Origin: a virus
Length of the DNA stretch: 57,639 nt
Direction: 5' to 3' (one strand)
IMG/VR virus record: IMGVR_UViG_3300018083_000005
Coordinates: 1 to 57,639 of that record
This document shows positions 1,320 to 57,228 of this stretch, in pieces (position 1 is the first letter of the stretch; the number at the start of each line of letters is the position of its first letter). The translations under genes and the position numbers were made by a program. The notes beneath the pieces are model-generated. The model had not been told where the DNA came from and did no database searches. It was given only the letters and a program-made list of their open reading frames with translations.

Positions 1320-1345
1320 GGTGCCTCCCTCGGTTGCCTACTTGC

Positions 1346-1619: not shown

Positions 1620-1661
1620 TAGTCCTGCAGGAACAATCCTGCACCGACCGAGGGAGGCAAC

Positions 1662-4638: not shown

Positions 4639-6254
4639 TGGCTGACGTTCGCGTACTGCCTGACGTAAAGATTTCGGATGCAACTACACCATCCCAACAG
4701 GTTGCTGTCGATGCTTCCGGCCGCCTATCCGTCAACCTAACTGCATCATCTGCAACTGTCACTGTCGATTCGGAGCTACCAGCGGCATCAGCACTATCGT
4801 CGGATGCTGTTGCTAACCCGACTACTTCGACAATAGGATCGCATAACTATACGTATAACGGTACCAACTGGGATCGTCAGAGAAGTGCTGCTGCTGCACA
4901 GGATACAACTGGTACAGGAATTGCAGCGGCGGGTATCCTTGCACAGCTTGACGATGCTGCAACCGCGACGGTTACTGAGAACCAGTTTGCACCTGTGCGC
5001 CTTTCGTCCAGAAGGGCGCTGCTGGTTGAAGGTGTAGCGTCCGGTACAAACCTCAATGTTGCAATTGCGGCATCTTCCGCAACGGTAACGGTTGATACGG
5101 AACTTCCGGCTGCAGCGGCGCTTTCAGATACGACGGCTAACCCGACAACTGCAATGATCGGTGCGGCTGGCATGTTGTGGGACGGCTCTACGAACTGGAT
5201 TAGAGCGAAGTCTGCAGCTACGCTTGCTGATGCCCTTGCGAACCCTGGTTCTGGGCTTTCACAGAGTCAGGTGTTTCTCATGGGTTACAACGGTACGACA
5301 TGGGATCGCGTTAGAACTGCAAACACTGGTCGTCTGCAAGTTGACGTGATTACTGGTGGTGGCGGTACTCCCGCCAACATCATCGTTGACAATGCTGCCT
5401 TTACCGATGGTACTACCTCAATCGGTATCGCAGGATTTATCTTCGATGAAACTGCTGGTACTGCACTTACCGAGAATGACGGTGCCGCTGCACGTGTGGA
5501 TTCCAAGCGCGCACAGGTCATGGTCATTGAAGATGCGACGACTCGCGGACAGCGATCTGCGGTAGATGCATCTGGACGTTTGAGTGTTAACCTTACGGCA
5601 TCGTCCGCAACTGTGACGGTTGATACCGAGCTTCCCGCCGCCGCAGCTTTGTCGGATACGACTGCTAACCCCACTACTTCCATGATCGGCTCTGCCGGAA
5701 TGTTGTGGGATGGTACGACTAACTGGATCAGGGCCAAGAGTGCTGCTACTTTGGCTGATGCACTCGCTAACCCCGGTGCAGGTTTGGGTCAACAGCAAGT
5801 GTTCCTGATGGGTTACAACGGAACCACGTGGGATCGTGTTCGCACTGCTAACACAGGACGCTTGCAGGTCGATGTTATTACGGGTGGCGGTACGAACACG
5901 CCGACCGCGCCTAACCCGAACTACAACACTGCAGCGTCTATTGCGGCAGGCTCTACGTCGAACCACGATACTGCCGACTTCGGTGCAGCTACGAAAGCTG
6001 TTCGCTCTGTGATCATGGGTGCTTCGGTGCCGATGAAGGGTGAGCTTCAGTATGTTGACAACGCAGTTGGTACGACGCTGGCAGTGTTCTTCACTGCTGC
6101 AGGACAGACTCAGACGTTCAAGCCTGAGCATCCTGACTACTGGAAGCACACGTTTTCTGCAACTGCAGGACTCGACGCTTTCAGACTAATCCGCACAAAC
6201 CTCGATGCGTCTGAAGCTGCTGACCTTTACAGCATGGTCATGCACGAAGGCTAA
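4638..6254 (+). CDS. Repeat-containing virion fibre or decoration protein, 538 residues
   Basis: Contains two long internal repeats of about 110 residues (about 155-237 and 310-415). Each runs from an ATVTVDTELPAAAALSDTTA segment to a GYNGTTWDRVRTANTGRLQV segment; a partial third unit lies near the N terminus. The C-terminal 100 residues are a separate beta-rich domain. Composition is Ala/Thr/Gly/Asn-rich and weakly charged, as in extended virion proteins. A strong hairpin terminator follows, so expression may be partly insulated from later genes. Exact location on the particle is unknown. Confidence 0.7.
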   Translation: MADVRVLPDVKISDATTPSQQVAVDASGRLSVNLTASSATVTVDSELPAASALSSDAVANPTTSTIGSHNYTYNGTNWDRQRSAAAAQDTTGTGIAAAGILAQLDDAATATVTENQFAPVRLSSRRALLVEGVASGTNLNVAIAASSATVTVDTELPAAAALSDTTANPTTAMIGAAGMLWDGSTNWIRAKSAATLADALANPGSGLSQSQVFLMGYNGTTWDRVRTANTGRLQVDVITGGGGTPANIIVDNAAFTDGTTSIGIAGFIFDETAGTALTENDGAAARVDSKRAQVMVIEDATTRGQRSAVDASGRLSVNLTASSATVTVDTELPAAAALSDTTANPTTSMIGSAGMLWDGTTNWIRAKSAATLADALANPGAGLGQQQVFLMGYNGTTWDRVRTANTGRLQVDVITGGGTNTPTAPNPNYNTAASIAAGSTSNHDTADFGAATKAVRSVIMGASVPMKGELQYVDNAVGTTLAVFFTAAGQTQTFKPEHPDYWKHTFSATAGLDAFRLIRTNLDASEAADLYSMVMHEG

Positions 6255-25895: not shown

Positions 25896-27771
25896 CAGTA
25901 AATGGTTTGGTAACTCTGATGCCGATGTTATCGGTGATTTACAGCGTCGTATTTCGACGGTAGAATCCTATGCTACTGACCTAGAGCGTAAGATCGCAAA
26001 CTTCGATTCGCCACAGCCTATCTCACGTGTCGATCCAGTTACCTATTTGAATCCCTTTGAGGGCCAACGCGCCATCGATCCCGCCGATGAGCAGCATATG
26101 TGGTACTCAAACGGAGAATGGCGCAAGGCTGGTGGCTTCGGCATCTATGAGATTAAAGTCTTCGATGATACGTTTGTAGTTACCACGGGCGATGATAAAT
26201 TCATCTGGCCGATCCCTCATGAGCTTGACGATGGACAGATCATTGAGGTTGAAGCGGCCGTAACTACAGCGGGTTCTGGTACCACTACCATTGCAATCCG
26301 TAAGGGGACAGCAGGTACAGCAGGCTCCGATATTCTATCCACGAATATCACAATTGATTCCGGAGAGTATAACTCCAAGGATGCCGCTACCCAACCTGTA
26401 GTAATTGATCCTACGATTGCTACGTGGGGTCAACATCTACATATCGATGTGGATGCCGTAGGCTCAGGGGCAAAGGGTCTGTGTGTCATGGTGACCCTGG
26501 TTCCCTCCAACCTCGCAAGCATCGTGCTAGCAGGAGCGCAAGGGCCAGCAGGAGGAATCACAGACTGGACAGGGCAGTGGGTAACTGCAACCGGGTATAC
26601 CGTAAACGAAGCTGTCTCTAACAACGGTAGTAGCTACGTTGCAATCGTAGACCACACTTCAGGGGCAACGAGCGAACCAGGGGTAGGAGCGAATTGGGAA
26701 GACTTCTGGATGCTTCTCGCAGAGGGAAGCTCCGGGGGTTCGGGTATGTCCACGCCTGTTACCCAGACTGCCCACGGTTTAGCGGTTGGTGACATAGTAC
26801 GTTTCGATGGTACAAACTATGTAAAGGCTCAAGCTGATACGGAAGCCCATGCTGAAGTTGTCGGACTAGTATCAGTAGTTGGTGGAGCAAACGATTTCAC
26901 CCTTGTCATGGGCGGCGACATTACCGGACTTACGGGCCTGACCTCGGGAAGTGTCTATTACCTCAGTCCGACGACTGCAGGAGCTTTGACGACTACTGAG
27001 CCGACGACTATTGGGCAGGTATCCAAGCCGCTACTCGTTGCACATTCTACGACTACAGGGTTCCTGTTCAACATGCGCGGGGTTGTCGTCCCGACGCCTA
27101 TCGAAGTCGGTCAGTCACAGGCCGATGGTTGGACACGTAGCTACGCGGAAACTTGGACATACGCGAGCGCCACAACATTCACTGTGGCTGGTGATCAGAC
27201 TGTGAAGTTCTCCAAGGGTACGCGGATTAAGCTAACACAGTCAACAGTCAAATACTTCATTGTCTCGGCAAGCTCGTTCAGCGCGGGAGTTACGACAGTT
27301 ACTATCACCGGGGGTACCGACTATACACTTGCCAATGCAACGGTCAGCGATAACTACTACTCATATGAGGCAAATCCACAGGGCTATCCGGGGACGTTCA
27401 ATTATACACTGGCTTGGACTTCAACGGGAACCGCTCCCTCTTTCGGCAACGCCGCTGTCGTCTCTCGTTTCAGTATGGTTGGAAATATCTGCCGAACTGA
27501 GTTCTTCATCACGTTTGGTTCCACGACTACCTTCGGCACCGGCTCATACCGCTTCTCCGCGCCTATCACTATCGCAAAATACGCCGCTGGCTCGGCGTGG
27601 GCCGTCGATCAGGGTACGTCCTTTCGGTCGGGGCTTGTTTTCGTCGACACCGGCAACAACGTCATTCGGATTCTAAGCGTTGCCGACGCCGCTGATGAGT
27701 GGGCAGCGACTGTTCCGAACACTTGGGCAAACACCGACCTCATCGTTGTCACAGCGACGTTTGAAATTTAA
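25888..27771 (+). CDS. Tail fibre/receptor-binding protein, 627 residues
   Basis: Modular. Residues 1-60 are a helical attachment part. About 80-215 is a beta domain. About 228-285 is a ChiC/CBM5_12-like carbohydrate-binding pattern (WVTATGYTVNEAVSNNGSSY, then GANWEDFWMLL). About 285-400 is a Gly-rich head domain. From about 410 a module starts (TFTVAGDQTVKFSKGTRIKL) that is shared with the next two genes. It should attach to the hub and bind the host surface. Confidence 0.75.
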   Translation: MTNSKWFGNSDADVIGDLQRRISTVESYATDLERKIANFDSPQPISRVDPVTYLNPFEGQRAIDPADEQHMWYSNGEWRKAGGFGIYEIKVFDDTFVVTTGDDKFIWPIPHELDDGQIIEVEAAVTTAGSGTTTIAIRKGTAGTAGSDILSTNITIDSGEYNSKDAATQPVVIDPTIATWGQHLHIDVDAVGSGAKGLCVMVTLVPSNLASIVLAGAQGPAGGITDWTGQWVTATGYTVNEAVSNNGSSYVAIVDHTSGATSEPGVGANWEDFWMLLAEGSSGGSGMSTPVTQTAHGLAVGDIVRFDGTNYVKAQADTEAHAEVVGLVSVVGGANDFTLVMGGDITGLTGLTSGSVYYLSPTTAGALTTTEPTTIGQVSKPLLVAHSTTTGFLFNMRGVVVPTPIEVGQSQADGWTRSYAETWTYASATTFTVAGDQTVKFSKGTRIKLTQSTVKYFIVSASSFSAGVTTVTITGGTDYTLANATVSDNYYSYEANPQGYPGTFNYTLAWTSTGTAPSFGNAAVVSRFSMVGNICRTEFFITFGSTTTFGTGSYRFSAPITIAKYAAGSAWAVDQGTSFRSGLVFVDTGNNVIRILSVADAADEWAATVPNTWANTDLIVVTATFEI

Positions 27772-27774
27772 CTA

Positions 27775-28413
27775 ATGAGTGCAATTGAATTCTCACCCAA
27801 TGCAGTATCTCTCGACGGTTGGCTTGCCGCTGGCGAAACCTTCACCTACGCAAGCTCTACTACTTTTACTGTGGCAGGGGATCGGACGGTACGTTACTCA
27901 AAAGGCACAAGAATCAAACTCACCCAGAGTACGGTTAAATACTTCGTGGTTACTCTCTCCGCATTTTCTGCCGGGGTGACAACAGTTACTATCACGGGCG
28001 GCACCGACTATACACTTGCAAACGCGGTAGTCAGTGATCCATTCTATTCCTATGCAGCAAATCCCCAGGGCTACCCCAGGGGCTTTAACTATACTCCGAC
28101 GTTCACGGGGTTTTCTGCAAACCCGGCCACATCTGTTTACTTCTCCGTTCAAGGAACGGTTGTCACCTGTGTATTCTATCCTGGTTCAAATGGAACGAGC
28201 AACGCGAACTCGCTTACTATGTCTTTGCCCATCGCGGTAGGCTCAGGAGTGTGGACTGCGATGCGCGGATTCGACAACGGCGTAGATGTAACGAACTCTG
28301 CGATGGGTCTTCCAAGTGGCTCTACGCTCACGGTCTACAAGGATTGGGCCGGTGGCGGCTGGACTACCTCGGGAGCCAAGCAAGCGTCCGGCACGATCAC
28401 GTACATAATGTGA
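27775..28413 (+). CDS. Receptor-binding paralogue 1, 212 residues
   Basis: Almost the entire N-terminal 110 residues repeat the module seen in the fibre protein: TFTVAGDRTVRYSKGTRIKL, FSAGVTTVTITGGTDYTLAN and SYAANPQGYPRGFNY. The C-terminal 100 residues diverge completely, with Gly/Ser/Asn-rich strands and YKDWAGGGWTTSGAKQ. That is the pattern of tail-tip proteins whose tips vary with receptor. It follows the fibre gene after three bases. Confidence 0.75.
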   Translation: MSAIEFSPNAVSLDGWLAAGETFTYASSTTFTVAGDRTVRYSKGTRIKLTQSTVKYFVVTLSAFSAGVTTVTITGGTDYTLANAVVSDPFYSYAANPQGYPRGFNYTPTFTGFSANPATSVYFSVQGTVVTCVFYPGSNGTSNANSLTMSLPIAVGSGVWTAMRGFDNGVDVTNSAMGLPSGSTLTVYKDWAGGGWTTSGAKQASGTITYIM

Positions 28414-28419
28414 GCTAAT

Positions 28420-29055
28420 ATGAGTGCAATAGAAGTCATACGAGAACGTGGCGACGGTTGGATATACGCCGACGAAACACTGACCTATGCCAGCGCGACT
28501 ACTTTCACTGTCGCGGGTGATAGAACAGTCCGTTATTCCAAAGGTACTCGGCTTAAGCTAACGCAATCAACAGTCAAATACTTCGTCGTTACCTTATCTT
28601 CTTTCTCAGCCGGGGTGACCACGGTTACCTTCACAGGAGGTACGGACTACACACTTGCCAATGCTACTATCAGTGATCCGTTCTATTCATATGCTACAAA
28701 CCCACAAGGGTATCCGACCTACTTTAACTACACTCCAACATGGGGAGGATTCTCTACCGCTCCGGCACTTGGAGGCGGGATGTGCAGGTTCTCAGTTGTT
28801 GGAGGAGTATGTTTCTATATGGCTCATTTCAACACATCTGGAACCAGCAACGCTACTAGCTTGACGGCTTCTATCCCCGTCACTAACGCAAGCTTTGGTC
28901 AGTACCCCGTCACCCGCATACAGGACAATGGAACTTACTCCTTCGGAATGTGCGAGGTTACTTCTGTACTCACATTCTTCAAGGATGGAAGCGGTACAGG
29001 CTTCACAGCTAGCGGGTCAAAGAACGCTTGGTGGGGAGTGTCCTACATCATCTAA
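28420..29055 (+). CDS. Receptor-binding paralogue 2, 211 residues
   Basis: Same conserved N-terminal module as the two upstream proteins (TFTVAGDRTVRYSKGTRLKL, SYATNPQGYPTYFNYTP) and a different C-terminal tip. The opening MSAIEV matches the MSAIEF of paralogue 1, so both arose by tandem duplication. Overlaps the lectin-like gene as TAATG. Confidence 0.75.
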   Translation: MSAIEVIRERGDGWIYADETLTYASATTFTVAGDRTVRYSKGTRLKLTQSTVKYFVVTLSSFSAGVTTVTFTGGTDYTLANATISDPFYSYATNPQGYPTYFNYTPTWGGFSTAPALGGGMCRFSVVGGVCFYMAHFNTSGTSNATSLTASIPVTNASFGQYPVTRIQDNGTYSFGMCEVTSVLTFFKDGSGTGFTASGSKNAWWGVSYII

Positions 29056-44836: not shown

Positions 44837-46345
44837 CTAATCTCCGAATATCTCGTCAAACCATTTGCCTTTGGTATCGAGCTTGGTCTTGACATAACCA
44901 TCGACTGTCTTATCTGCGTTGATGTAGATTACTTCACAAGCGTGTTCTTGTCCGGGTCTGTAAACCCGTCCGATTGCCTGCATCATGTCCTTGGGCGACC
45001 ACGATCTATCCAGAAAGATGAGGTACTGAGCACAGGAAAGGTTAATGGACTCCCCACCAAGCGCCAGAGTAGATAGAAAGACTTGGTATTCTGGCTTCCG
45101 AAATAGATCGTGCCAGATTCGATAGCGTTCTGATTCACTATGATGCTGCTCCATATGCAAGTAACCAATTTTGGCCTTATCCAATCTGACCTTGAGTAGC
45201 TTAAGTGGGTCTTTGAAGTTACTGAATACCACCACCTTCTGCTCAGGTTCGTCAAGCTCCTCTAGAATCTTCATAACATCATCGAGCTTGGACGATGGCT
45301 CAACCAGTTCGATATCCGTAACCATACGATTCTGCTTGGCATCGAATGCGTGATTGACCACGTTCGGTGTAGCCACACAGATTTGGCGTAGTCGGTTGAG
45401 CTGACTCAGGACATTGGGTGAGGATAGCGTAGCACCCTTCTGATCCATCGTCCGCAGTACCGTCTTGATTTCACTGTACATCTTCCGCTGTACTGCGTTC
45501 AACTCTGTAGCGTGTACAGTCTCAATCGGCTTCTCGATACCTCTGTGGACTTTCGCCATCGTGTGTCGAGGACCAAGCTGCTTACGTAGCGCACGAAATT
45601 CATCTACTCTGTGTGGCAAGATGCCTCGGATGAATCTGAACCCTCTGGCATCCATGTACTGATCGCAGAAGTAGTTGCGAAACGACCAGTAACTCTTGTA
45701 TTCATTAGGACTCAAGAAGTTCAACAGGCTCCACATTTCTGCAGGGTTGTTGACGAATCCCGTACCCGTCATGATGTGCCTATTGGTAGAGCGTAGCCTC
45801 TTGATATTGCGTGTCCACTGTGCCTTTGGATTCTTCAGCCTGTGAGCTTCATCAGCTAGGATCATATCCCAATTGATTGTCTTCAGCTTGTCGAATACGC
45901 CGATACCATCCTTAGATTTCTTGGCCGAATTGGTATTGGCAGCAGTAGTGAACACGTCATAGTGTGCGAGTACCACCATCGGGTGATTATGTCGGCCACT
46001 CTTGATAGTGTACAGTAGCTCATTGATAGTGGTCGGACTCTCAAAGTCCTCAATGCGTAGTGTGGCATCGTGGATACCTAGATTGTACAGTTCCCACGAT
46101 TCCGGCAGGCATCGATAGAAGTCTGAGAAGTACGCACCCTTGCCCATCTTGGACGTAATGATGAGCGCGTTCTTTACTCGTTTCTTTTGGAGCAGCCACA
46201 AACCCGTACTGGTTTTGAAGCACCCCATCTGTGACCAGTTAGCCGAGTAGGGCATAGGCGAGAGATAGCGCAAATCCTTCTCTTGCCAAGCTCTGCGTTC
46301 GTATTGACTCTCGGTTATCAGGTCTTCAAACAGTAGATCAGTCAA
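44837..46345 (-). CDS. SNF2-type helicase, 502 residues
   Basis: Superfamily 2 ATPase. Motif I is MGCFKTST (residues 40-47), a variant lacking the usual Gly before Lys. Motif II is DEAH (165-168), motif III MTGTGF, motif V ALGGESINL and motif VI QAIGRVYRPGQ. It probably remodels DNA or protein-DNA complexes during replication or recombination. TTG start at 46345 directly after ACCAAGGGAGGTA. A perfect sigma70-type promoter lies upstream. Confidence 0.88.
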   Translation of the reverse strand: MTDLLFEDLITESQYERRAWQEKDLRYLSPMPYSANWSQMGCFKTSTGLWLLQKKRVKNALIITSKMGKGAYFSDFYRCLPESWELYNLGIHDATLRIEDFESPTTINELLYTIKSGRHNHPMVVLAHYDVFTTAANTNSAKKSKDGIGVFDKLKTINWDMILADEAHRLKNPKAQWTRNIKRLRSTNRHIMTGTGFVNNPAEMWSLLNFLSPNEYKSYWSFRNYFCDQYMDARGFRFIRGILPHRVDEFRALRKQLGPRHTMAKVHRGIEKPIETVHATELNAVQRKMYSEIKTVLRTMDQKGATLSSPNVLSQLNRLRQICVATPNVVNHAFDAKQNRMVTDIELVEPSSKLDDVMKILEELDEPEQKVVVFSNFKDPLKLLKVRLDKAKIGYLHMEQHHSESERYRIWHDLFRKPEYQVFLSTLALGGESINLSCAQYLIFLDRSWSPKDMMQAIGRVYRPGQEHACEVIYINADKTVDGYVKTKLDTKGKWFDEIFGD

Positions 46346-46367
46346 TCTACCTCCCTTGGTTTACCTG

Positions 46368-46829
46368 TCAACCATGTATCATAGCAAGCGCCTCTGGAAT
46401 TGTCAAGCCCTGCTTCTGTAACGATTTGAATTTGAGGTACGCTGTGTGACAGGACTTATTTTCGTTTCGTTTGTGGAACAGAGCGCCGTCTTTAGCACCC
46501 TTTATCGGTTTCCTACAGGCTTGACATATCGGACGAGCTAGCTCTGTTACGGCGTCCCTGGCTTGAGTGAATGTGTAGCCTCTGACAACCATGAGCAATT
46601 CTATCTCGTCTGCATGTTTGGTTAACCAAAGCTCTTGCCGACAAGTACGGCACGTAGTACGATAAAGGTCGCTCCCTTGAAGCACAGTACCACAGTGAAT
46701 GCATTTTGCTCGGTGATCTATTTGATCTGAACACTCAGCACACCAGCCAGTATCGTAGTTAAAATTGAGATACGAAACCCAATCCCCGCAAGAGGTACAT
46801 AGTTCCTCTAGGTCGGGAATTGCAGACAA
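46368..46829 (-). CDS. Multi-zinc-ribbon protein, 153 residues
   Basis: TTG start is the likeliest, with weak site. At least four Cys pairs: CTSC (11-14), CAEC (30-33), CIHC (43-46), CRTC (60-63), then CQAC near 102 and a His/Cys end (HKRNENKSCH). The last part resembles an HNH-type finger without a full catalytic set. Probably DNA- or RNA-binding. Its 3' end contains the helicase promoter. Confidence 0.65.
   Translation of the reverse strand: MSAIPDLEELCTSCGDWVSYLNFNYDTGWCAECSDQIDHRAKCIHCGTVLQGSDLYRTTCRTCRQELWLTKHADEIELLMVVRGYTFTQARDAVTELARPICQACRKPIKGAKDGALFHKRNENKSCHTAYLKFKSLQKQGLTIPEALAMIHG
46378..46406 (-). promoter_or_regulatory. Consensus sigma70 promoter of the helicase
   Basis: TTGACA (46406-46401), exactly 17 bases, TATGAT (46383-46378), inside the 3' end of the upstream zinc-ribbon gene. 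It is the best canonical promoter in the window. A second TTGACA follows at about 46377-46372, just after the -10 box. Confidence 0.8.
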
Positions 46830-46875: not shown

Positions 46876-47448
46876 TTACGCGCCCCCGCAACCCCATGCT
46901 CCGTAGCCAAAGCGAGAATAGACGTTAAGGGCAGCCTGGTATTGCTGTCTGGGTGTAGCGAGATAGGCTTCGGAAGGCGCACCGGCTGGCTTGTATCCGT
47001 CCCACGTGGAATTAGCGAAACCGAATGCTCCCTGATAGGCACCACTATTCCAGTCCCATCTTGAAGCTCCTGGCCCTGTACCACCTTGATATCCTGTTTC
47101 ACAGCGAGCTATCCTTTGCCATTTGGAGGGGAGCCATTGCCACCATGCGTAATGGTAAATCCACTTGGTATACTGTTCGTGATAGGCATGGGCTTGACCT
47201 CGCCAAGATGTAACCACGAAGCGTTTATAGGCACAAGCGTGCTTCCTGCGCTCTGGGTAGTATGTAGGACTTCGTGCATCACCTAGCTCCTTTTGATAGT
47301 ACCAAACCTTAGCACGGTAGTAGACTATGGCTTTTTCTGCCGATCTGCACGTTACTACTTTGACTTTTTCCTGGGGCTTTCGCTGTTGGCTATCGCCGCT
47401 ACCTACGAACAGCAGCGCGACCAGTATGGCAGCTAGTCCTAGCAGGAT
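46876..47448 (-). CDS. Rpf-like transglycosylase with non-ATG start, about 190 residues
   Basis: The C-terminal 80 residues match the Rpf domain of actinobacteria: RIARCETGYQ with the catalytic Glu, AYQGAFGFANSTWDGY, and the closing YGAWGCG. It cleaves peptidoglycan glycan strands. The frame is open upstream to TAA at 47463-47461. It gives an N-terminal signal-anchor (LLGLAAILVALLFVGSG) right behind AAGGAGAAGGA, but without ATG, GTG or TTG; ATC at 47448 or CTG at 47445 are the only sensible starts. The first ordinary start, GTG at 47217, would remove the export signal. Confidence 0.75.
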   Translation of the reverse strand: MLLGLAAILVALLFVGSGDSQQRKPQEKVKVVTCRSAEKAIVYYRAKVWYYQKELGDARSPTYYPERRKHACAYKRFVVTSWRGQAHAYHEQYTKWIYHYAWWQWLPSKWQRIARCETGYQGGTGPGASRWDWNSGAYQGAFGFANSTWDGYKPAGAPSEAYLATPRQQYQAALNVYSRFGYGAWGCGGA

Positions 47449-47476: not shown

Positions 47477-47571
47477 CACGGGCGAAGGATGGACTATCCA
47501 CTTTTCTGCACGGGGATGGGTGCAGTGGGGAGATGGGTAGGATAGTCCATCCTCTTTATCGTTTGCCCGTG
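47477..47571 (-). ncRNA. Nested three-stem RNA element upstream of the Rpf gene
   Basis: CACGGGC (47477-47483) pairs with 47565-47571; GGATGGACTATCC (47487-47499) pairs with 47540-47552; CTGCAC (47506-47511) pairs with 47520-47525. All three are nested and perfect. A further GGAGAGGG/CCCTCTCC pair lies at 47585-47592 and 47626-47633. It fills the 230-base gap before the transglycosylase gene and has no ORF. Direction is inferred from the minus-strand promoter at 47692. Confidence 0.6.
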
Positions 47572-47642
47572 GAATTAAAACGAAGGAGAGGGACACGTAA
47601 CAGCTTGTTTAAAGCCGATGCATGCCCCTCTCCTGAGCGTGT

Positions 47643-47655
47643 ACCAAGGGAGGTA
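47643..47655 (-). promoter_or_regulatory. Exact complement of the early-gene ribosome-site leader
   Basis: The plus strand reads ACCAAGGGAGGTA, identical to the leader before several leftward genes, so a minus-strand RNA carries UACCUCCCUUGGU. With the promoter at 47692-47664 it would lie at the very 5' end of the transcript. On the plus strand it precedes only a six-codon ORF. Confidence 0.5.
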
Positions 47656-47663
47656 CATGCCGC

Positions 47664-47692
47664 ACGGTAGCACGTAAATCCCTAGTTGTCAA
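47664..47692 (-). promoter_or_regulatory. Promoter candidate with extended -10
   Basis: TTGACA (47692-47687), 17 bases, TACCGT (47669-47664) preceded by TGC. It would start transcription near 47657, leading into the structured leader and the Rpf gene. Confidence 0.5.
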
Positions 47693-48231: not shown

Positions 48232-48314
48232 ACTTACCTCCCTTATTCCTGGAGAAAATCCGCGAGGAAATTCCTGTTGTCAGAATGGAAAACGCTTAGG
48301 CAGCTTCTAGAGCT

Positions 48315-49637: not shown

Positions 49638-49663
49638 AGAGTACCTCCCTTGGTTTCACGCGG

Positions 49664-50447: not shown

Positions 50448-50924
50448 TTAGGTACTGCTCTTTGCCTTGGACGTGCCAAGTCTTTTACCTCCCTCAATCG
50501 CATCTAACCGGGCCTTAATTTCAGTAAGCTCCCGGTCGAAGCTCAAAATGAAACCGTTTATGTCTACTCCCTGTAACCTCCTTTGCAAGTCTTTGACCTG
50601 TTGACGGACTGTATCAAGCTCTGTGGGTTTTGTCAAGCGTTTCTCGTAAATACCCACATACTCGTCGTATTCAGGCTTGTGGCGCAGCAGTATCACTGAG
50701 CCTTGCCGACCTGAACCACGCTTTACCTGTTCAATACAGCCCATCGCTGTGAGGGCGTCGAATATCTTTGTGTAATAGCCCTGACTCACGCCGATAGCGC
50801 GGAAGGCTTCGACCTTCGATCCCTCAAACTTTAGTGTACCACCGTTGTCAAGTGGAGCGGCACGTTTTTCAAGCTCGTCGTACATGTGAGCCATGTGAGT
50901 GAAGATAGCCGGAATGTCACTCAT
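50448..50924 (-). CDS. Winged-helix plus coiled-coil protein, 158 residues
   Basis: Residues 30-95 read as a winged helix (AFRAIGVSQGYYTKIFDALT, then MGCIEQVKRGSGRQGSVILL, helix-turn-helix followed by a hairpin wing). Residues 108-145 form a coiled coil suited to dimerisation. A transcription factor or replication initiator is plausible. The start overlaps the HNH gene as TAATG. Confidence 0.65.
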   Translation of the reverse strand: MSDIPAIFTHMAHMYDELEKRAAPLDNGGTLKFEGSKVEAFRAIGVSQGYYTKIFDALTAMGCIEQVKRGSGRQGSVILLRHKPEYDEYVGIYEKRLTKPTELDTVRQQVKDLQRRLQGVDINGFILSFDRELTEIKARLDAIEGGKRLGTSKAKSST

Positions 50925-52758: not shown

Positions 52759-52924
52759 CTTCACTTACCTCCCTTGGTTCTGGAAACCATTTGGATTCTA
52801 GGATACGCTCGATATCATCTTGCATATCCAACATTTTGTTGTGAATGATAATTACGTAGATAATCAGGATTGCTATACCGATATCCTGTATTGCATCGAC
52901 TAGATCACCACTAACGGTAGGCAT
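52748..52924 (-). CDS. 58-residue single-span membrane protein
   Basis: ATG at 52924 follows AGGAGCTTCG. One span at about residues 15-27 (IGIAILIIYVIII) with charged flanks and an acidic end. Its last codons contain the leader of the next gene. Overlaps upstream gene by 14 bases. Confidence 0.6.
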   Translation of the reverse strand: MPTVSGDLVDAIQDIGIAILIIYVIIIHNKMLDMQDDIERILESKWFPEPREVSEDEV

Positions 52925-53665: not shown

Positions 53666-53680
53666 GTATCTCCCTTGGTT

Positions 53681-54814: not shown

Positions 54815-54850
54815 ACTTACCTCCCTTGAGTAGTTTGACCGTATGCTTTC

Positions 54851-55602: not shown

Positions 55603-55627
55603 AACTTCTCCCTTGGTAGGTTACTAC

Positions 55628-56777: not shown

Positions 56778-56928
56778 GGTACCTCCCTTGGTAGATTTGT
56801 TTGCGCGTTTCATTCAACGTGCCGCGCCCCACGTTATCTCCGTCTTTTTGGAGGGCCACTATCTCTAATACGGTGGTGTCCATATCCGAAGATATGTGCG
56901 GAATTCCATTCCCCATCCGCAGGTTCAC
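56728..56928 (-). CDS. Possible small ORF overlapping the 195-residue gene
   Basis: A 66-codon frame whose middle (VLEIVALQKDGDNVGRGTLN) looks protein-like. It has no clear ribosome site and its end overlaps the start of the stronger gene by 50 bases. An internal GTG at 56838 behind GGAGATAAC is a possible start. Weakly supported. Confidence 0.3.
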   Translation of the reverse strand: MNLRMGNGIPHISSDMDTTVLEIVALQKDGDNVGRGTLNETRKQIYQGRYHESMESERDSTADHRR

Positions 56929-57085: not shown

Positions 57086-57210
57086 CTCAGCCCTTTACAG
57101 TGCAGGATTCTATGAGATAGTAGGAACGGGCTGAGGTGAGTCGAACCCTTTATTTTGGCCCCGCCTAACCGTAGGCTTCCCTTCGTCGAGACAAACACCT
57201 ACTATCTCAT
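57086..57210. other. Structured non-coding element with competing stems
   Basis: ATGAGATAGTAGG (57112-57124) pairs perfectly with 57198-57210, and CTCAGCCC (57086-57093) pairs with GGGCTGAG (57128-57135). The right arm of the second stem lies in the loop of the first, so they form a pseudoknot or exclude each other. GCCTA/TAGGC gives an inner hairpin. No ORF in the stretch. Confidence 0.55.
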
Positions 57211-57228
57211 GCAATCCAGCAAAGTTAC

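Follow-up and report, generated by a model that had tools for sequence, protein, structure and literature searches.

The leftward replication module of this virus is predicted to open with a leader RNA whose 5′-terminal hairpin displays in its loop the complement of a ribosome-site leader, ACCAAGGGAGGTA, that is carried by about a dozen of the virus's own genes. Across relatives the loop and the leader change together, which suggests one RNA able to control many viral genes at once. At a probability of about 0.65, we propose that this leader of the replication operon acts as an antisense RNA and blocks translation of the leader-tagged genes, the repression being likely to occur in trans. Support for the structured RNA and for its match to the leaders is as strong as sequence data by themselves can provide; we infer transcription of the element, its action in trans and repression as the outcome, and the pairing might do something else.

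The window, the whole stretch of 57,639 bases analysed here, represents a complete virus record and carries a terminal direct repeat of 123 nt. The structural genes, among them those for terminase, portal and tape measure, are read rightward, and a leftward module from ~47.5 to 33.7 kb encodes DNA polymerase, primase, a Sak4-like annealing protein, an exonuclease and an SNF2-type helicase. Upstream of this module are small leftward genes, mostly without known function, and the leader element marks the boundary between these early genes and the replication module; the labels early and replication were assigned from gene content rather than from expression data. No tRNAs were found in the 57,639-base window, no DNA similarity to the leader region among 50,697 phage records, and no helicase relatives among 84,980 bacterial and archaeal genomes. 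Elsewhere in the window, strong inverted repeats with arms of 22 and 24 nt lie at 542-589 and 57101-57221, within the early region, and at 5065-5890 and 27126-28751 the rightward structural region holds segments of 190-300 nt in two or three diverged copies (64-79% identity).

The first-pass annotation had reported the 13-mer ACCAAGGGAGGTA in inverted orientation, as an exact plus-strand copy at 47643-47655, together with four exact minus-strand copies (46348-46360, 49642-49654, 52766-52778 and 56780-56792) and further near copies, and all were found at these positions. With up to three mismatches allowed, the 13-mer had 29 matches compared with 12.3 ± 3.5 in shuffled sequences, none of 100 shuffles reaching 29. 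A minus-strand promoter had also been suggested at 47692-47664, where TTGACA-17-TACCGT was indeed read and where relatives have the same motif in the same place. The −10 hexamer TACCGT fits TAnnnT but matches TATAAT at 3 of 6 positions, and for that reason the promoter was missing from the list of a generic sigma-70 scan. Transcription was predicted to start at A47658, which places UACCUCCCUUGGUA at about +4 to +17, within the first ~18 nt of the transcript. The expectation that the complement would stand near the start of an RNA and be followed by stable hairpins was supported, the leader 47657-47470 being predicted to fold (−86.1 kcal/mol, z = −8.9 relative to shuffles) into the stem-loops SL1 to SL3. 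The features of the leader and of the genes behind it are as follows.

47664..47692, minus strand: predicted promoter, by direct reading (−35 TTGACA at 47692-47687, 17-nt spacer, −10 TACCGT at 47669-47664)
47643..47655, minus strand: 13-nt stretch exactly complementary to the ribosome-site leader (UACCUCCCUUGGU); relatives have it unchanged or co-varied
47640..47657, minus strand: SL1, predicted 5′-terminal hairpin UGUACC-UCCCUU-GGUACA from about +2, loop complementary to the Shine-Dalgarno (SD) leader, supported by covariation
47584..47634, minus strand: SL2, predicted 14-bp hairpin followed by TTCGTTTT; relatives also have a long GC-rich stem here
47477..47571, minus strand: SL3, predicted long hairpin (GGAUGGACUAUCC arms), absent from some relatives
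47459-47454, minus strand: ribosome-binding site AAGGAG of the first gene
46876..47445, minus strand: first gene of the predicted transcript, a small protein with a transglycosylase-like domain (Pfam match, PF06737)
46368..46829, minus strand: zinc-ribbon-like protein on the same predicted transcript (match below the Pfam cut-off)
44837..46345, minus strand: SNF2-type helicase, its own leader at 46360-46348 being an exact target

The inverted 13-mer forms the tip of SL1, which alone among the leader hairpins has an anti-leader loop. SL2 is a possible terminator or attenuator that would free an RNA of ~90 nt. An Rfam search returned nothing at the gathering threshold, and below it only chance matches of plant miRNA models to SL2. 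The transglycosylase-like gene has a probable CTG start (47443-47445, minus strand); CTG is also found in L004, and TTG at the same spacing from the ribosome-binding site in L006, L051 and L052. A near-consensus promoter with an extended TG (TTGACA-17-TATGAT, 46406-46378, minus strand) lies directly upstream of the helicase leader. The helicase would thus be expressible from two transcripts, and since this second promoter adjoins the leader, tagged helicase mRNA made from it would carry the 13-mer near its 5′ end.

Predicted partners of the loop were concentrated in the early block. Strong pairing (≤ −17 kcal/mol) was predicted at 11 of 28 early SD sites. In the replication block it was predicted at 1 of 21 sites, that of the helicase, and in the structural block at 1 of 32, that of the first gene, making 2 of 53 outside the early block (Fisher p = 8e-5). 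After the cost of opening SL1 was subtracted, net binding was again best for early genes (−11 to −14 kcal/mol; Mann-Whitney p = 0.004). The first gene of the transcript itself has a plain AAGGAG site and weak loop pairing (−10.5 kcal/mol). The target leaders are as follows.

46348..46360, minus strand: ACCAAGGGAGGTA, helicase, exact
48235..48247, minus strand: AATAAGGGAGGTA, 59-aa gene
49642..49654, minus strand: exact
50486..50498, minus strand: ATTGAGGGAGGTA
52766..52778, minus strand: exact
53667..53679, minus strand: ACCAAGGGAGATA
54818..54830, minus strand: CTCAAGGGAGGTA, DUF932 gene
55605..55617, minus strand: ACCAAGGGAGAAG
56780..56792, minus strand: exact
1322..1334, minus strand: ACCGAGGGAGGCA, first early leftward gene
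1647..1659, plus strand: ACCGAGGGAGGCA, first rightward gene

The last two lie near the two ends of the region 1317-1664, which also holds divergent promoters and TTTGACAGRCCTG repeats, one of them a perfect palindrome, TGACAGGCCTGTCA, over a −35 element; this looks like an early switch region with operators.

Searches of IMG/VR with the helicase gave about 20 lineages with 100 to 41% identity. Nine relative lineages (L004, L005, L006/7, L008, L009, L010/11, L012, L051 and L052; helicase 63-90% identical) were found to have the same promoter in the same place, TTGACR-N17-TANNNT, with a hairpin at +1, 5-8 nt past the −10 element, and the element lay about 1.2-1.6 kb before the helicase where this distance was measured. 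Conservation of the 13-mer complement in related phages had been put forward as a check on the first-pass annotation, and the promoter, the +1 hairpin and the anti-leader loop were present in all close relatives, with covarying stems. The elements of L004, L005, L006 and L010 were located by position or homology, so that stems were not a selection criterion, and those of L012, L013, L051 and L052 by the promoter and a C-rich stretch, with no stem asked for.

The stems had hardly any sequence in common between lineages (GUGUACC/GGUACAC, CUUACC/GGUAAG, CAGCC/GGCUG, GACACC/GGUGUC, CGCUUGCC/GGUGAGCG) and were still paired. In a count of nine lineages that left out the bulged stem of L006, 96.3% of cells in SL1 were paired and 14 were double changes; four of six pairs had changed on both sides, and 12 further pair types were seen. 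The covariation score was 0.796 compared with 0.253 after shuffling (0 of 500 shuffles), and structures slid along the sequence were 27-42% paired. The loop read UCCCUU in seven of the nine lineages and nearly so in the others. Hairpins with this loop and a stem of at least 5 pairs occurred once on the early strand in six of seven genomes and twice in L052, always including the leader site; the background chance per site was 0.8%. When the promoter and loop pattern was run against all 2.9 million IMG/VR contigs, the matches were confined to these relatives. We conclude that SL1 is under structural selection. The element was absent from the relatives L054, L085 and L087, in L054 from the position before its transglycosylase gene, and L013 had a C-rich +1 hairpin loop (UCUCCCCUGA) yet no clear matching leaders. 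L054 is a distant relative with canonical AAAGGAGGTG sites; it has, before another gene (concatenated contig position 14033-14110), a +1 hairpin with the loop UCCUCCCGAGGCC, which might represent another class of such elements.

The loop and the ribosome-site leaders were found to change together. In the class of the window (W), the leader core is CCAAGGGAGG, and seven lineages combine it with the loop CCUCCCUU (CCUCCCUUGG). In L006 and L007 the leaders, CAGGGAGG, are one A shorter and the loop, CCUCCCUGG, is one U shorter. The L006/7 leaders were predicted to form a duplex of −19.4 with their own loop compared with −15.6 for the W-type loop, and in both leader sets the genome's own loop paired 3-5 kcal/mol better than the loop of the other. 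L012 has the loop CACCUCCCC, and one of its leaders reads GGGGAGGTG. A more distant class (L073, L078 and L084, about 50% helicase identity), whose elements were found by asking for any +1 hairpin with the loop ignored, has the loop CUACCCCC in the hairpin CUAC-CCCCAH-GUAG and a second hairpin that is conserved in form too. Its leaders read GGGGGTAG or GGGGGTR at 5/40, 5/37 and 2/17 starts on the transcribed strand, and at 0/65 on the other; GGGGGTR leaders are also present in W-class genomes, at 3%. Leader type tracked loop type (p = 3e-6 for A versus C and 7e-5 for A versus B), in comparisons that represent few independent changes among related phages, so that the p values overstate independence. 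Within the leader, GGAGG can pair with 16S rRNA; the CC before it cannot, and pairs with the GG of the loop. This CC precedes AAGGGAG in 8 of 11 leaders in the window, 7 of 8 in L004 and 5 of 9 in L005. The co-change and the 11 of 28 early sites with a predicted pairing of ≤ −17 kcal/mol lend support to the earlier suggestion that the RNA could pair with many early ribosome sites.

Under the proposed mechanism, the promoter at 47692-47664 would start the leftward transcript of the replication module, and its first ~18 nt would fold into SL1 and display UCCCUU. This loop complements a private Shine-Dalgarno leader that stands before about a dozen genes, most of them in the early leftward block, and before the helicase. 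The loop would form a kissing contact with AAGGGA of the leader, and the pairing would spread to 10-13 bp and keep the ribosome off. As the replication transcript accumulated, or else a short SL1-SL2 RNA whose end lies behind SL2, translation of the tagged genes would fall together, and the first gene of the transcript, with its plain AAGGAG site, would escape.

The same pairing could serve another purpose. Tagged mRNAs might bind the 5′ hairpin and so control the stability, attenuation (through SL2) or translation of the operon that bears it, or the hairpin might be a sponge, or a cis auto-regulator acting on the helicase leader. The position of SL1, with which a long operon begins, and of the terminator-like SL2 next to it would suit such a role. 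So would the helicase leader, which lies on the same transcript and was a target in 9 of the 13 lineages compared, a recurrence that also counts in favour of the proposed mechanism (no helicase target was found in L052, L008, L073 or L078). In the class with about 50% helicase identity most of the targets lie farther down the transcript that bears the hairpin, outside the early block, the tagged genes including the helicase and exonuclease-like and annealing-like genes (named by likeness to the modules of the window, with no family search); in these phages cis or auto-regulation would be as likely. Trans action on early genes is accordingly best supported for the class of the window, where 11 of 13 strong targets lie in the upstream early block and one downstream. 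This distribution, together with the poor pairing of the first gene's own ribosome-binding site, argues against another use of the pairing, which we consider unlikely.

Repression by pairing is also to be set against readings in which the resemblance to SD leaders plays no part. The element might be an antitermination signal like the put RNAs, or a 5′ stabilizing hairpin with a long stem; polymerase or a protein would then bind the C-rich loop, and the likeness to the leaders would be incidental. In put RNAs two hairpins follow directly after the promoter at the head of an operon, and the leader has this arrangement; its likeness to the HK022 type, which suppresses termination by direct contact with polymerase, is in layout only. 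The loop and leaders have co-changed in three ways, which a fixed contact with protein or polymerase would not predict, and we regard this reading as quite improbable. Alternatively, the 13-mer could be an inverted copy of a protein-binding DNA site that is also found before genes. The 10-bp core (CCAAGGGAGG) is indeed the same in most lineages; the arms, however, differ between lineages and remain complementary, with the 12 further pair types, a property for which DNA recognition has no need, and the chance that the 13-mer is a DNA site is very small. As its own alternative the first-pass annotation had offered an inverted gene start left over as a relic; on the plus strand of the window an SD is followed by ATG and an ORF of six codons. 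This ORF is present in the window but was not conserved in relatives: L004, L005, L006 and L010 have no ATG here and keep the anti-leader and the promoter, the opposite of the pattern (13-mer lost, plus-strand frame kept) that would have spoken against a regulatory RNA. The relic was thereby refuted, and we give it next to no weight. The put-like, DNA-site and relic readings, which drop the pairing, all fail to explain the co-change.

Repression by a hairpin loop has partial precedents. The c4 antisense RNA of phages P1 and P7 has hairpin loops complementary to its target and blocks the ribosome site of a phage gene, ant (review PMC12197685). The predicted leader RNA would likewise be a phage RNA with a hairpin loop, shown on a conserved stem, that is complementary to the ribosome site of the phage's own genes. 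Whereas c4 acts on one operon (ant), the loop found here matches the leader of about a dozen genes, stands at the 5′ tip of an operon leader and co-evolves with its targets; there is no sequence relation. The CI RNA of satellite phage P4 is an antisense hairpin RNA that is likewise derived from an untranslated leader and pairs with two phage sequences (PMC4825925), but it terminates transcription within its own transcript and has these two sites only. The 6C and B11 sRNAs of mycobacteria and their relatives have C-rich hairpin loops that pair with G-rich stretches upstream of many start codons (PMC10470900), as the SL1 loop is predicted to do; they have two such loops and mixed targets among host genes, in contrast to the phage's own genes with a matched extended leader. 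Membership of the 6C family was considered and rejected, the leader having no Rfam 6C match even at E ≤ 10 and a C-rich anti-leader loop on SL1 only. Searches of an open-access literature library found no phage anti-SD hairpin acting on many genes.

A parallel was found in the cluster K mycobacteriophages. These carry SAS/ESAS, a repeat of 13 bp that overlies the ribosome sites of 11-19 early genes and is conserved beyond 16S pairing; SAS has one orientation save for a single inverted copy, in K1 phages, that is not at a gene start, and RNA or protein was left open as its binder (Pope et al. 2011, PMC3203893). The role of SAS was still called unknown in papers of 2024 and 2025. In Adephagia the inverted SAS at 58,682-58,694 (33683-33695 of L014, JF704105) was found to be the loop of a hairpin, GCGCGG-CCUCCUAUCC-CCGCGC, in the interval from gene 92 to gene 93; late transcription has been reported to begin there (PMC11373665). 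The hairpin is also present in L015, L016, L025 and L061-L064; seven K1-like phages have it unchanged and an eighth has a close version, with variable outer stems. K1 phages, too, therefore seem to carry near the beginning of the next transcript a loop that complements the tag of the early genes. A general anti-SAS hairpin in cluster K was not upheld: all subclusters examined have SAS, and the hairpin is clean in K1 only, with an altered form in K4 Amohnition and no counterpart in this position in K3, K6 or Oscar; the K3, K4 and K6 representatives have another loop there.

The tagged genes of the window resemble the SAS set: a 13-nt motif covers the SD of many genes of one block, is conserved further than 16S pairing requires and has one inverted copy. 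The window has neither the cluster K SAS sequence GGGATAGGAGCCC nor a Weiservirinae genome; its motif is a different one, and the region has no DNA match to phage records. The K1 hairpin lies in a presumed late leader, about 100 nt from the start, whereas SL1 is at +1, and the phages are unrelated. We tentatively suggest, at somewhat less than an even chance, that both belong to a private system of translation addresses, in which an extended SD leader compatible with host 16S rRNA would tag a set of genes, and a hairpin in the leader of the next transcription unit would switch that set. Loop and tag would co-evolve into mutually deaf versions, and SAS in K1 with its lone inverted copy would be an independent case.

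The parallel offers a candidate answer to a question open since 2011, namely what the SAS repeats do and why K1 phages have one inverted copy, in a cluster that includes mycobacteriophages that are therapy candidates. Accounts of the switch from early to late genes in phages usually invoke promoters and proteins; if the proposed mechanism is true, one short RNA loop and a shared ribosome-site tag would together switch the translation of an entire set of genes, in a way that can be read from sequence.
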